Shown here one piece after another: positions 31,379-46,571 of a stretch of 51,969 nt of DNA (position 1 is the stretch's first letter; every line of letters starts with the position of its first letter). The notes below the pieces were generated by a model. It had not been told where the DNA came from, ran no database searches, and was given only the letters and a program-made list of their open reading frames with translations. Position numbers and translations under genes: made by a program. The stretch comes from Clostridiales bacterium. GTDB lineage: Bacteria > Bacillota > Clostridia > Lachnospirales > Lachnospiraceae. The stretch is from assembly GCA_029100885.1 (NCBI GenBank), contig JAQXPY010000178.1, positions 1 through 51,969 on the forward strand, given 5' to 3'.

Positions 31379-31449
31379 AGGGGCATCATCCAATGGTAGG
31401 ATACCGGTCTCCAAAACCGTCAATCTGGGTTCGAGTCCTAGTACCCCTG
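31379..31449 (+). tRNA. tRNA-Trp (CCA)
   Basis: AGGGGCATCATCCAATGGTAGGATACCGGTCTCCAAAACCGTCAATCTGGGTTCGAGTCCTAGTACCCCTG; anticodon CCA, TTCGAGT loop. Confidence 0.95.
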
Positions 31450-31459
31450 TTAACAGAAT

Positions 31460-31545
31460 ACCTATAAAGAGTGCGCGAGAGACAAGCTCGTTGACCGCAC
31501 AGCAACCGCTGATAAGAGCAAGGTGCTAAAGCTTGGATGATGGGT
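31460..31545 (+). promoter_or_regulatory. SAM-I-clan (S-box-like) riboswitch aptamer upstream of metK
   Basis: P1 ACCTAT/ATGGGT; P2 GTGCG-CGAG/CTCG-CGCAC; conserved-looking AGCAACC, AAGGTGCTAAA and GATGA; precedes metK. Confidence 0.8.
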
Positions 31546-31563
31546 TAAATATGACTTTCAATC

Positions 31564-37165: not shown

Positions 37166-38249
37166 AAAGACTCCTCTGATTCGTATATCCAAGCGTGAAA
37201 ATGCCGGTAAGGGTTATATCTGGTTTGTCAGAGCCATGGCGTTTCTGTTTGCTCTGCTGCTCAGCTGCCTGGTTTTTGCGGCTGCCGGCGCCGATCCTGT
37301 TGAGGCATACGGCACAATGATAAGCGGATCGCTCGGAAAAAAGAGCGGCATCAGGCAGGTGGTAAAGACTGCGGCTCCTCTGCTGGGAACAGCCCTTGCC
37401 CTTGCGCCTTGCTTTAAGATGAAGTTCTGGAACATAGGCGCCGAGGGACAGATAACTGTCGGAGCTATGGCTGCTGCTTTCTTTGCCATCAATTTCGGCA
37501 CAAAGCTTCCTTCACCGGTGCTTCTTACCGCTATGGGCATAGGCTCCATGGTGCTTGGAGCCCTTTGGGCGGGCATTCCGGCTGCCTTCAAGGCAAAATG
37601 GCATACAAACGAGACTCTGTTTACTCTTATGCTCAATTATATTGCCATCGGCATTGTCGGATGGCTTCAGGGCGGTCCGTGGGAAGGAAAGCAGGGCTCA
37701 CAGGTGATACCGAACTTTGTCGAAGCTGCGGTGCTTCCAAAGGTTCTCGGTGTTCACTGTGGGTGGATAATCGTGCTTATCCTTGTTGTTTTTATATTTG
37801 TATATATGAATTATACAAAGCAGGGATACGAGATATCCGTTCTCGGCGAATCTGAAAATACCGCAAGGTACGCAGGAATGAATGTTTCCGTTATCACCGT
37901 CAGAACAGCCTGCATATCCGGAGCGATATGCGGTCTCGTAGGGTTTATGGTGGCTTCGGGAGCCAATCAGACCCTTTATGCAGATGTTGCCGACGGAGTA
38001 GGCTTCACGGCCATTACCGTTGCGTGGCTTGCTCAGCTCAATCCATTTGCCATGATCATTATTTCGCTTCTCTTCGGAGTTCTCAGCAAGGGTGCCTCCA
38101 GCCTTCAGACAGGCATGGGAGTTCCTTCTTCCGTATCGGAGATCATAAAGGGACTGCTGCTGCTGTGCCTGCTGGGATGTGAGTTCTTTATCAATTACAG
38201 ACTGACCTTCAGAGGTCATTCGGTCGGAGAGAAAAAGGGGTGTGAATAA
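37158..38249 (+). CDS. ABC transporter permease (YufP-like)
   Basis: FKMKFWNIGAEGQITVGAMAAAFFA; polytopic; overlaps the ATPase gene. Confidence 0.88.
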   Translation: MNEKTPLIRISKRENAGKGYIWFVRAMAFLFALLLSCLVFAAAGADPVEAYGTMISGSLGKKSGIRQVVKTAAPLLGTALALAPCFKMKFWNIGAEGQITVGAMAAAFFAINFGTKLPSPVLLTAMGIGSMVLGALWAGIPAAFKAKWHTNETLFTLMLNYIAIGIVGWLQGGPWEGKQGSQVIPNFVEAAVLPKVLGVHCGWIIVLILVVFIFVYMNYTKQGYEISVLGESENTARYAGMNVSVITVRTACISGAICGLVGFMVASGANQTLYADVADGVGFTAITVAWLAQLNPFAMIIISLLFGVLSKGASSLQTGMGVPSSVSEIIKGLLLLCLLGCEFFINYRLTFRGHSVGEKKGCE

Positions 38250-39235
38250 TGAATTTTAATCTTATCGGACTTATTCGTGCTGCTGTTCTGAACGGCACCC
38301 CGCTGCTTTTCGGTACATCGGGTGAGATCCTCACACAGAAATCCGGCAATATGAACCTTGGAGTAGAGGGTCTCATGTTTATGGGCGGAGCCTTCGGACT
38401 GCTCGGAGCATTTGTGTACGGAAATGCAGCAGGAGATGGGGCTGTCGGCTGGATAGCGGTTATGATCGCATTTCTGTCTGCCTTTGCCGCAGGCATTATC
38501 GGGTCTCTGATATTCAGCTTTCTGACGGTCACTCTTCGTGCCAACCAGAATGTTACGGGTCTGGCTCTGACGATCTTCGGAACGGGAGTCGGTCAGTTTG
38601 TCGGCGAGCTCATGAGGCTTAAGGTCGGAGGAAACGTGTCTGTCAGCAACTCTCTTAAGACAGCATTTTCAGGGTCTGTATTTCCTGAAGCCATGCAGAG
38701 CATTCCTGTTCTCGGACCGTTGCTCTTTAACTATAATGTATTTGTATATATCGGTCTTGTGATTGTTGTCATTATGTATCTGTTTCTGAATAAGACCAGA
38801 AAGGGATTGTATCTGAGGGCAGTGGGAGAATCTCCGGCAACGGCGGATGCGGCCGGTATAAGCGTGACAAAGTACAGATATCTGGCTACCTGTATAGGAG
38901 GAGGAATCTCCGCCATCGGAGGCATGGTTCATACTATGACTATTTCAGGCTGTGTCTGGAATCATACAGCTTTGGCCGGAGAAGGCTGGGTGGCTGTTGC
39001 CCTCGTTATTTTCTGCCTTTGGAAGCCGCTTAATTCACTTTGGGGTTCGATCCTGTTCGGAGGACTGCTCATTCTTTATCTCAGGCTTCCGATACCGTTT
39101 ATACCTACCCAGATATACAAGATCGTGCCGTATATTGCCACAGCCGTGGTGCTCGTGATAGTATCGATGAGGCAGCGCAGAGAGGATCAGCCGCCTGCCG
39201 GACTGGGACTCAATTACTTCAGAGAAGAGAGATAA
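38249..39235 (+). CDS. ABC transporter permease (YufQ-like)
   Basis: GTPLLFGTSGEILTQKSGNMNLGVEGLMFMGG; overlaps the previous gene. Confidence 0.9.
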   Translation: MNFNLIGLIRAAVLNGTPLLFGTSGEILTQKSGNMNLGVEGLMFMGGAFGLLGAFVYGNAAGDGAVGWIAVMIAFLSAFAAGIIGSLIFSFLTVTLRANQNVTGLALTIFGTGVGQFVGELMRLKVGGNVSVSNSLKTAFSGSVFPEAMQSIPVLGPLLFNYNVFVYIGLVIVVIMYLFLNKTRKGLYLRAVGESPATADAAGISVTKYRYLATCIGGGISAIGGMVHTMTISGCVWNHTALAGEGWVAVALVIFCLWKPLNSLWGSILFGGLLILYLRLPIPFIPTQIYKIVPYIATAVVLVIVSMRQRREDQPPAGLGLNYFREER

Positions 39236-39243
39236 GCTCTTAC

Positions 39244-39272
39244 TTGACTCGGGTCTTTAATAATAGTATATT
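39244..39272 (+). promoter_or_regulatory. Strong promoter TTGACT-N17-TATATT upstream of pnp
   Basis: -35 39244-39249, -10 39267-39272, exact 17-nt spacer. Confidence 0.75.
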
Positions 39273-39273
39273 T

Positions 39274-39341
39274 GACTCTGTATGTTGATCAGTGTTTTAT
39301 TTTATATTAAGCACTCCCCGGCATACAGAGTCCTGTTTTTT
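39274..39341 (+). terminator. Terminator-like structure in the pnp leader overlapping the expected start site
   Basis: Perfect 11-bp arms GACTCTGTATG (39274-39284)/CATACAGAGTC (39322-39332); inner AGTGTTT/AAGCACT; T6 at 39336-39341. Confidence 0.65.
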
Positions 39342-39370
39342 GTATGGGGAGAGTGCAGAGGAGAAAAGCT

Positions 39371-41617
39371 ATGGATTTAAATTTTGGAACTTTTTCCAAA
39401 GACGTTGACAGGTCATACAAGACCTACAGTATGGAACTGTGCGGCAGAACTCTTTCTGCCGATATAGGCAGGGTCTCGGCTCAGGCTAACGGCGCTGTTC
39501 TTATGCATTATGGAGATACAACTATTCTTGCAACCGCAACTGCTTCCAAGGAGCCGAGGGACGGTGTGGATTTCTTCCCGCTTTCTGTCGAGTACGAAGA
39601 GAAGATGTATGCTGTTGGAAAGATACCGGGCGGATTTAATAAGAGGGAAGGAAAGGCGTCGGAGCATGCCATTCTTACATCCAGAGTTATCGACCGTCCT
39701 ATGAGACCGCTTTTCCCGAAGGATTACCGTAATGATGTTCTTTTGGATGATATGGTAATGTCTGTGGATCCTGACTGCCCTCCGGAGGTTCTTGCGATGC
39801 TTGGATCTTCACTGGCAACAAGCATCTCCGATATTCCTTTTGACGGTCCTTGTGCAGCGACAATGGTAGGACTTGTAGACGGTAGGTTTGTGTTTAACCC
39901 GACAAATGCGGAAAAGGTCCTTTCAGATCTTTCTCTTACTGTAGCATCCACAAAGGATAAGGTCATCATGATCGAGGCCGGAGCCAATGAGGTAAGTGAT
40001 GAGGTCATGATCGATGCCATTTATCAGGCTCATGAGATCAATCAGAAGATCATCGCCTGGATGGAGCAGATCATTGCCGAGGTAGGAAAGCCGAAGCACG
40101 CCTATGTTTCCTGCGCTGTTCCGGAGGAGCTCTTTGCGGCGATCAGAGAAGAGGTTCCTCAGGAAGAGATGGAGGAGGCTGTTTTCTGTGATGAGAAGCA
40201 GAAGCGTGATGCGAATATTGCTGCTATTACCGCCCGTCTTAAGGAGAAATTTGCAGATAACGAGGAGTGGCTTGCGGTTCTCGGTGAGGCTGTATATCAG
40301 TATCAGAAGAAGACTGTCCGCAAGATGATACTCAAGGACAGAAAGAGACCTGACGGCAGAGGCATTTCGGAGATCAGACCGCTTGCGGCCGAGATAGATG
40401 TGGTTCCGAGAGTGCACGGCTCAGGCATGTTTACAAGAGGTCAGACACAGATCCTCAATATCTGTACACTTGCACCGCTTTCCGATGCCCAGAAGATAGA
40501 TGGTCTGGATGAGACTGTAACCTCCAAGAGATATATGCATAACTATAACTTCCCGTCATATTCTGTCGGTGAGACGAAGCCTTCGAGAGGACCGGGAAGA
40601 AGAGAGATAGGTCACGGAGCTCTTGCTGAGAAGGCTCTTATTCCTGTACTTCCGAGTGTTGAGGAATTCCCTTATGCTATCAGAACAGTGTCCGAAACAC
40701 TGGAGTCAAACGGATCCACATCTCAGGCTTCGGTATGTGCTTCTTCACTTTCACTGATGGCTGCCGGAGTACCTATCAAGGCTCCTGTTGCCGGTATCAG
40801 CTGCGGTCTTGTTACAGGAGAAACAGACGACGATTATATTGTTCTTACAGATATTCAGGGACTTGAGGACTTCTTCGGAGATATGGACTTCAAGGTTGCA
40901 GGTACCGAGAAGGGAATCACTGCTATTCAGATGGATATCAAGATCCATGGTCTTACAAGACCTATCGTTGAGGAGGCTATCGCCCGTACTCATGAGGCAC
41001 GCCTTTACATCATGAACAATATCATGAATCCTGTGATTTCCGCGCCGAGACCTGAGCTTTCCAGGTATGCGCCTAAGATAAGCTCCATAACCATCGACCC
41101 GTCAAAGATCGGAGATGTAGTCGGAAAGCAGGGCAAGACCATCAACAAGATCATCGAGGAGACAGGAGTTCAGATCGATATTGAGGATGACGGACATGTT
41201 TCTGTATGCGGTACGGATCAGGATATGATCGACAGAGCTATTGAGATAATCGAGAGCATAGTGACAGATATCGAGCTTGGCATGATCACCTCCGGACCTG
41301 TTGTAAATATTCTTCCTATCGGTGCACAGGTTCAGCTTGGACCGAACAAGAAGGGTCTTATTCATATTTCCAGACTGGCTGACAGCCGTGTCGGAAAGGT
41401 TGAGGATGTGGTAAAGCTCGGAGACGAGGTGACTGTAAGAGTTATCAAGGTCGATGAGATAGGAGGAAAGATCGATCTGTCCATGCGTCCATCGGATATT
41501 AACGATACATGGTCACCTGAGCTTGAAAACGAGCGCAGAAAGAGCTTCGGGGACCGCAGAGAGCATGGCGGAGACAGAGACCGCAGAGGCTCAAGGGACA
41601 GAAGAGACAGACACTGA
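39371..41617 (+). CDS. pnp: Polyribonucleotide nucleotidyltransferase
   Basis: RNase PH domains, KH motif IGDVVGKQGKTINKIIEETG, S1 domain. Confidence 0.97.
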   Translation: MDLNFGTFSKDVDRSYKTYSMELCGRTLSADIGRVSAQANGAVLMHYGDTTILATATASKEPRDGVDFFPLSVEYEEKMYAVGKIPGGFNKREGKASEHAILTSRVIDRPMRPLFPKDYRNDVLLDDMVMSVDPDCPPEVLAMLGSSLATSISDIPFDGPCAATMVGLVDGRFVFNPTNAEKVLSDLSLTVASTKDKVIMIEAGANEVSDEVMIDAIYQAHEINQKIIAWMEQIIAEVGKPKHAYVSCAVPEELFAAIREEVPQEEMEEAVFCDEKQKRDANIAAITARLKEKFADNEEWLAVLGEAVYQYQKKTVRKMILKDRKRPDGRGISEIRPLAAEIDVVPRVHGSGMFTRGQTQILNICTLAPLSDAQKIDGLDETVTSKRYMHNYNFPSYSVGETKPSRGPGRREIGHGALAEKALIPVLPSVEEFPYAIRTVSETLESNGSTSQASVCASSLSLMAAGVPIKAPVAGISCGLVTGETDDDYIVLTDIQGLEDFFGDMDFKVAGTEKGITAIQMDIKIHGLTRPIVEEAIARTHEARLYIMNNIMNPVISAPRPELSRYAPKISSITIDPSKIGDVVGKQGKTINKIIEETGVQIDIEDDGHVSVCGTDQDMIDRAIEIIESIVTDIELGMITSGPVVNILPIGAQVQLGPNKKGLIHISRLADSRVGKVEDVVKLGDEVTVRVIKVDEIGGKIDLSMRPSDINDTWSPELENERRKSFGDRREHGGDRDRRGSRDRRDRH

Positions 41618-41649: not shown

Positions 41650-43086
41650 ATGAGTATTTCGCCTGACAGCGATCAGCTGAAGGCAATCATGCATGGTTTG
41701 GGACCGGCAATGGTAATAGCCGGTCCCGGCAGCGGCAAAACTGCTGTAATAACAGGGAGAGCTGCTTCTCTTATCAACTGTGGACTGGCTGCTCCCGACA
41801 GCATACTTGTTATAACATTTACACACACTGCCGCTGCGGAGATGCATCAGAGATTTCTGCGCTTATCAGCCGGAGAAAGGAGAGAGGGCCCGGTAATGAC
41901 CGGGAATACTCCTGTTTTCGGTACCTTTCATTCTGTTTTTTATTCTTTATTAAGACATCATACAGGCTTTGGCAGCTATACACTGGCAACACATGCGCAG
42001 TCTGCCGAGGTTCTTCGCAGGCTTTTCGACAGATTATATCCAGATAACAGGTATTCTTCGGATCTATATTCAAATCTGCTTAATAGTATAAGCAGGTTTA
42101 AAAACGGTATCCGGGATCAGGATCCGTCATCGTCTTTTATGGGACAGGAGCCGTTCGGACTGATAAGGGAATATGATAAAATGATGAGGGAAATAGGGCT
42201 GTTCGATTTTGATGATATGCTGTTGGAGTTTTATGCGGCATTAAAGAAAGACCGTATGTTCCTTCAGGCTGTCAGGAGCAGATTCAGGTTCATTATGATC
42301 GATGAGTTTCAGGATATCAATGCCCTGCAGTTTGAGATCATCAGAATGATGGCGCAGGAACATCGCAATCTGTTTGTTGTAGGGGATGATGACCAGAGTA
42401 TATATGCCTTCAGAGGCTCGAGACCGGAGATAATGCTGGGGTTTACGGGATATTATCCGGATGCTGTATTATATACATGTGTTTCCAATTACAGATCCCA
42501 GGCTGAGATAATTTTTGCTTCCCGCAGACTTATAGAGAGAAACAGACACAGGTTCGGAAAGGCATTGAAGGCTGTGAATCCACCCGGCGCGAAGGTGACG
42601 GTTCGAACCTTTTCTGACAGCCGCAGGGAGGCGGTATATGTTGCCGGCTGTATTGCGGATCACCTGCAAAGGAACCCGCTGTGGAGCTTCGGAATTTTAT
42701 TCAGGAATCACAGGCTGCAGAGTGAGGTCCGCAGGGAGCTGGTAAAAAGGGGACTTTGGGAGGAGACTGAGAAGGGAAGGATCAGGCTTCTGACATTTCA
42801 CGCCTCCAAGGGCCTGGAATTTGACGTTGTGTTCCTGATAGGCGCAAACGATGAAACAGTACCAGGCATCAGGCACTCTGTCACAGAAGACGAAGAGGCT
42901 GTTATCGAGGAGGAACGGCGGCTTTTTTATGTAGCCATGACAAGAGCAAAAAAAATTCTTCACATTTCAAACACAAAATACATATATAATAAAAAGCAAA
43001 CGATCAGCCGTTATGTTTTAGAAGCCCTGAGCATGAGGGACAGGCTGAGATATTTTGCATGGGAGATGTTAAACAGCAATGAATGA
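41650..43086 (+). CDS. Compact UvrD/Rep-type SF1A helicase
   Basis: GPGSGKT, DEFQDIN, GDDDQSIYAFRG, LLTFHASKGLEFDVVFL, RRLFYVAMTRAKK; 478 aa. Confidence 0.9.
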   Translation: MSISPDSDQLKAIMHGLGPAMVIAGPGSGKTAVITGRAASLINCGLAAPDSILVITFTHTAAAEMHQRFLRLSAGERREGPVMTGNTPVFGTFHSVFYSLLRHHTGFGSYTLATHAQSAEVLRRLFDRLYPDNRYSSDLYSNLLNSISRFKNGIRDQDPSSSFMGQEPFGLIREYDKMMREIGLFDFDDMLLEFYAALKKDRMFLQAVRSRFRFIMIDEFQDINALQFEIIRMMAQEHRNLFVVGDDDQSIYAFRGSRPEIMLGFTGYYPDAVLYTCVSNYRSQAEIIFASRRLIERNRHRFGKALKAVNPPGAKVTVRTFSDSRREAVYVAGCIADHLQRNPLWSFGILFRNHRLQSEVRRELVKRGLWEETEKGRIRLLTFHASKGLEFDVVFLIGANDETVPGIRHSVTEDEEAVIEEERRLFYVAMTRAKKILHISNTKYIYNKKQTISRYVLEALSMRDRLRYFAWEMLNSNE

Positions 43087-46388: not shown

Positions 46389-46393
46389 AAATG

Positions 46394-46571
46394 AGCCTGA
46401 GATGTTCGTCGGGTTTATTATATTACTTCCACAATCTGACATACGGGATTTCGTATAGAGCTGATGATGCCGGGCCGCCTGTGAGCGGAAGACTGAGGCA
46501 GCTCTGAGATAACCCACCTGGCTTTACAGCTGGGAGTCAACAGTAAACCAGCGGCACCTTGGGTATTTTTT
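46394..46571 (+). ncRNA. ssrS: 6S RNA (SsrS) candidate
   Basis: 5' CCTGAGATGTTCGTCGGG resembles the conserved 6S 5' element CTGAGATGTTCG. About 175 nt between a promoter and a T-run (CACCTTGGGTATTTTTT), no supported ORF. Confidence 0.68.

Follow-up and report, generated by a model that had tools for sequence, protein, structure and literature searches.

We conclude that the leader of pnp in the window, the whole 51,969-nucleotide stretch of DNA analyzed here, somewhat more probably than not contains an intrinsic terminator for the upstream operon that is split by the pnp start site. According to the folding models, a hairpin belonging to the upstream transporter operon would overlap the pnp promoter, its 5′ arm beginning right past the −10 box. 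Polymerase arriving from the transporter genes would copy the whole 5′ arm, a 14-bp stem would form upon emergence of the 3′ arm, and a fraction of the incoming polymerases would stop at the U-run. RNA made from pnp's own promoter is predicted to start at about 39279/39280, without the outer six bases of the arm; because those bases would be missing, the stem next to the U-run could not close and the promoter-started RNA would escape. The freed 3′ arm would then pair downstream in a second hairpin (hairpin 2), just before the ribosome-binding site. We give about even chances to a broader view, that this is a passive, protein-free logic element which terminates polymerases from upstream and passes those started inside it, has been preserved at pnp through compensatory changes within a single Lachnospiraceae genus, and insulates an RNA-decay gene from changing upstream neighbors. 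That transcription starts there, that polymerase actually terminates, and that the element insulates pnp are what we infer; an origin-dependent terminator is supported by promoter conservation, compensatory pairing, rarity of the geometry, and a predicted difference in folding.

The source of the window is a Lachnospiraceae metagenome assembly with 183 contigs. We collected pnp and its upstream DNA from the window's genus and from the wider family; the same-genus relatives in this collection are uncultured Lachnospiraceae or Eubacteriales metagenome-assembled genomes. Upstream of pnp lie genes for a BmpA-type protein, an ABC ATPase, and two permeases (Table 1). The BmpA-type protein, which has no NCBIfam match, is presumably a substrate-binding protein, a name given from reading its sequence. 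Since the last permease stop codon lies 8 nt from the pnp −35 box, there is no space for a separate terminator; in L020, a same-genus relative, the upstream stop codon and the −35 box are 6 nt apart. A search of the interval from permease stop to promoter gave no other terminator candidate in either the window or L020. Elsewhere in the window, a gene for a PcrA/UvrD-like helicase of 478 amino acids, about two-thirds of the usual length, lies immediately 3′ of pnp (41650-43086), a tRNA gene (31379-31449) is followed after 10 nt by a SAM riboswitch (31459-31546), and a 6S RNA gene is found at 46391-46569.

Table 1. Coordinates of features at the pnp locus (window positions unless a locus is named).
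Feature	Position	Strand	Details
Last permease gene, upstream BmpA/ABC nucleoside-type transporter operon	38249-39235	+	
pnp promoter TTGACT-N17-TATATT	39244-39272	+	−35, 39244-39249; −10, 39267-39272; common to 17 genus leaders
5′ arm, terminator-like hairpin	39274-39284	+	GACTCTGTATG
Predicted pnp transcription start	39279-39280	+	7-8 nt past −10; G39280 is the aligned G of conserved GTATG/GAATG
Hairpin 2	39311-39356	+	GCACTCCCCGGCATAC (39311-39326) / GTATGGGGAGAGTGC (39342-39356); ends 1 nt before Shine-Dalgarno (SD) sequence
3′ arm, terminator-like hairpin	39322-39332	+	CATACAGAGTC; common to hairpin 2
T6 run	39336-39341	+	CTG (39333-39335) between stem and run
pnp SD sequence GAGGAG	39358-39363	+	
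pnp ATG	39371	+	
pnp, polyribonucleotide nucleotidyltransferase	39371-41617	+	NCBIfam NF008805, 925 bits
Family pnp-leader hairpin, 44 loci (alignment A1, model R1)	L058:1382-1435, L067:1414-1465 (examples)		

The pnp promoter had been proposed from the letters of the window alone; both its sequence and its coordinates proved right, and it is conserved across the genus. TTGAC-N18-TA...T was present in 17 of the 23 genus pnp leaders, with a spacer of exactly 17 nt in every one, and is followed at a fixed distance by nnnCTCYGTATG, usually then ACCGAATGAGG. The remaining six leaders (L013-L015 and L017-L019) carry a different promoter, TTGTAA-N16-TAAAAT. When the conserved leader core was scanned across the genus, close matches (≤1 mismatch) occurred only at pnp. 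The conserved promoter and the fixed sequence downstream of it place the predicted start within the 5′ arm, likely at G39280, the conserved G 8 nt past the −10 box, with 39279 as the alternative; the earlier suggestion of a start near 39279 inside the arm agrees with this position, which now derives from a promoter shared by 17 species.

The predicted messages also share their first bases. All 17 begin GUAUG or GAAUG, and most go on ACCGAAUGAGG or similar (39280-39295 and aligned positions), so that in the window and 16 relatives an AUG sits 3 nt from the 5′ end. In the window this AUG opens a 32-codon frame (39282-39380) that runs through both hairpins and stops within the first pnp codons. 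We rejected a conserved leader peptide beginning at this AUG, at +3, given that the frames vary by species (M*, MTE*, MAE*, or longer); the conservation of GUAUG/GAAUG is explained neither by a partner in a hairpin nor by peptide conservation. A −10-nnnCTNYGTATG start like that of the pnp promoters is also found in three other genera, at L145, L147, and L148 (position 1500, matching strand), in what we take to be yicC-family promoters.

The two arms of the hairpin in the window, GACTCTGTATG and CATACAGAGTC, are perfect complements. A perfect 11-bp inverted repeat followed by T6 had been described here by the sequence-only reading; the repeat and the T6 run exist, but CTG intervenes before the run. 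RNA folding carries the stem beyond 11 bp, with 39274-39332 forming two helices, one of 14 bp and an inner one of 7 bp (59 nt; −26.7 kcal/mol). The resulting stem-loop is stable, with a probability of 1.00 for the outer stem in read-through RNA, and it exceeded dinucleotide shuffles at the floor of that test (1000 shuffles, p = 0.001). The sequence past the stem is CTGTTTTTT, and the d'Aubenton-Carafa score is −36.9 because of the CTG spacer and the long hairpin; by this classical score the window copy is a weak terminator. Bases 39274-39279 of the 5′ arm are wholly or nearly absent from the predicted pnp-promoter RNA.

Comparison with same-genus relatives bears on whether this overlap is maintained. 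In 5 of the 17 species with the same promoter (the window, L002, L008, L020, and L021), the downstream arm pairs with bases starting 1 to 2 nt past the −10 box, and a U-rich tract follows the pairing in all five, weakly in two. The stem is followed immediately by a T-tract in L008, L020, and L021; the U-tract of L002 is weak, and L008 alone scores above zero as a terminator (d'Aubenton-Carafa, +5.1). L007 has a weak version of the overlapping hairpin that uses its SD sequence. Shuffling the downstream sequence gave p =.001 for the window,.001 for L002,.021 for L008,.008 for L020, and.002 for L021 (Fisher-combined p = 7e-5 over all 17 leaders). At +2, three species have a G-C pair and two have A-U; at +7, three have U-A and two C-G; at +6 the pair is C-G or U-G. 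Pairing with the pre-start bases is kept by compensatory change, in that +2 and +7 are altered on both sides among the five species, although these pairs and species are related by descent.

Other features of the comparison concern the history of the element. The whole hairpin varies from 33 to 66 nt in length across the five species, a spread that simple block copying of the 3′ arms would not give. The pnp tree scatters the five species within a single clade of 12, and at least three changes of state on it are well supported. The overlapping hairpin is absent from 12 of the 17 same-promoter species, and pnp expression therefore does not depend on it. In L021 the overlapping terminator coexists with a separate one upstream, and the link between the overlapping hairpin and a missing upstream terminator was not significant (p = 0.34).

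To compare the two origins of transcription, RNA was modeled with its 3′ end at the U-run and its start either upstream or at +7, +8, or +9. The probability of the outer six pairs was 0.96 to 1.00 in the read-through RNA of all five species, versus 0.13 to 0.15 for promoter RNA starting at +7 and 0.00 for starts at +8 or +9, again in all five. Addition of the seven pre-start bases shifted the folding z-score of the window leader from −2.6 to −4.1, that of L002 from −1.2 to −3.5, and that of L020 from −0.35 to −3.8. The expectation of a full stem in read-through RNA and a truncated one in promoter RNA is borne out by thermodynamics in the five species. In these models, pairing with bases absent from the predicted pnp message is hard to explain by any function of that message; a terminator acting on incoming polymerase would require just such pairing.

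The structure of the downstream leader bears on a second reading, which we regard as unlikely: that the leader is autoregulated by PNPase, hairpin 2 or the truncated first hairpin being a double-stranded target processed first by RNase III, with PNPase following, on the E. coli and S. pyogenes pattern, and the terminator look being secondary. Repression of pnp by RNase III through leader hairpins has been reported in several bacteria (PMC6431027, PMC8708148); for RNase III repression of pnp the second of these papers reports E. coli, S. pyogenes, S. coelicolor, B. burgdorferi, and C. jejuni. Hairpin 2 fits such a role in being a near-continuous 18-bp helix (−21.8 kcal/mol) beside the SD sequence, and the 3′ arm re-pairs downstream with probabilities of 0.75 in the window, 0.84 in L008, and 0.49 in L021. 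Its arms, its coordinates, its sharing of the 3′ arm, and its mutual exclusivity with the terminator stem are as originally described, but the T-run is partly paired rather than only looped out. Hairpins near the SD sequence also occur in L004-L007, and hairpin 2 may have a role in translation or mRNA stability. Against autoregulation, the z-score of hairpin 2 is only −2.6, the leaders of L012 and L016 are almost unstructured, and the pairing with six pre-start bases is left unexplained.

The rest of the family lends this second reading its other support. A near-continuous hairpin, CCGAGAC-n-ACUGAAAA...UUUUCAGU-n-GUUUCGG, is a feature of most pnp leaders elsewhere in the Lachnospiraceae; a strict search detected it in 57 of 105 leaders (a total that includes the window's genus, which has 0). 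Across 44 aligned copies, 97% of cells pair and both sides vary in 8 of the 15 pairs; 0 of 500 shuffles reached as high a value. A covariance model found the hairpin in 30 family members of a 295-genome order-level sample; 30 hits were fetched as loci, and 29 of them are immediately upstream of pnp. The family hairpin has no Rfam match. Because RNase III repression of pnp has been reported in several bacteria, it is a natural candidate for such repression, and it is probably an RNase III/PNPase control element. Model R1 (CCGAGAC-ACUGA...UCAGU-GUUUCGG) had no match at E ≤ 1 in the window or in the 22 genus loci searched, which speaks against autoregulation of the window leader by this route. 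The same result led us to reject the idea that the window leader is a divergent copy of the family hairpin, and by this sequence comparison the window's genus has lost it. Scanning the window and the leader against Rfam gave nothing relevant to the leader, and Actino-pnp (RF01688) had no match in the window at the gathering threshold or at E ≤ 10.

A conventional attenuator, with the main pnp start further upstream and a ligand, protein, or ribosome switching between the two hairpins, is improbable. Two mutually exclusive hairpins are indeed present and read-through RNA folds the first of them, as such a device would have it, yet the strong promoter conserved in 17 species puts the start within the arm, and there is no aptamer or Rfam match. 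The order of synthesis also opposes it: the 3′ half of hairpin 2 (39342-39356) is transcribed only once polymerase is past the U-run, so no antiterminator forms before the terminator is complete. Hairpin 2 was rejected as an antiterminator for this reason and can be a post-escape structure only.

Absence of function, with promoter and hairpin overlapping by chance or as a decayed remnant, would accord with the missing hairpin in 12 of 17 relatives and with the 3-nt displacement of the window T-run. We consider it improbable as well, in view of its recurrence in five species of at least three lineages, the two double-compensatory pairs, and the rarity of the geometry elsewhere. We counted terminator-like hairpins starting +1 to +3 past a −10 box in a 1.6-Mb background drawn from five genomes of the family, of which four belong to the window's genus and one to another. 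Of 306 promoter-like sites, 1 had the geometry, and hairpin starts did not peak at this position; the figure for pnp promoters was 5 of 17 (Fisher p = 1.3e-6; p = 5e-4 with only three lineages counted). Among random positions in the fetched loci, 36 of 20000 had it. The idea that start-site-split terminators are common in these genomes was rejected on this count and the lack of positional enrichment. Finally, a DNA-level inverted repeat, for example a repressor operator over the promoter or a short mobile repeat, begins as it should at the −10 box in all five species but is very improbable, since arm spacing varies, arm sequences differ while pairing is kept, the U-rich tract is always on one side, and close matches to the leader core (≤1 mismatch) occur in the genus only at pnp.

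The same promoter/hairpin overlap was seen at two further loci. One is L140:1501-1545, from another genus: the perfect 14-bp repeat there, AAATAAACTATGTA...TACATAGTTTATTT, has its arm AAATAAACTATGTA beginning within the −10 box of a promoter 3 nt past an apparent lumazine synthase gene. The other is L139, where the arrangement follows a GntR-like gene. Both gene names are presumptive, from reading of the translations. We found no matching description of overlapping promoter/terminator designs in the open-access papers searched, which is not proof of absence.

If the start-site-split terminator is real, neighboring operons would be separated compactly, with almost no spacer DNA. It would also supply a searchable rule, that a terminator whose 5′ arm starts from the −10 box blocks only read-through and ignores the downstream promoter, and it would affect annotation, as programs that score hairpins blind to the start site would call the pnp leader an attenuator. 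The family hairpin makes PNPase control in Lachnospiraceae, a major gut family, directly testable.

Among known systems, the pnp leader resembles intrinsic (Rho-independent) terminators in having a stem-loop and then a U-rich tract downstream of an operon; it differs in that the 5′ arm in the window starts 2 nt past the next gene's −10 box and includes that gene's predicted start, and in its long hairpin (59 nt) and the 3-nt spacer before the U-run. With attenuators, such as the predicted patA attenuator (PMC4319486), it shares a terminator and a mutually exclusive alternative leader hairpin. In the pnp leader, however, the choice would depend on the origin of transcription and not on a ligand, and the alternative hairpin lies past the U-run and so cannot prevent termination. 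The RNase III/PNPase-controlled pnp leaders of E. coli and S. pyogenes (PMC8708148, PMC6431027) likewise have a hairpin in the 5′ leader, whereas the window's genus is without the family-type hairpin. Actino-pnp RNA (RF01688; PMC2864571) is similarly a structured cis-regulatory pnp leader, but it belongs to a different lineage and has no match in the window.
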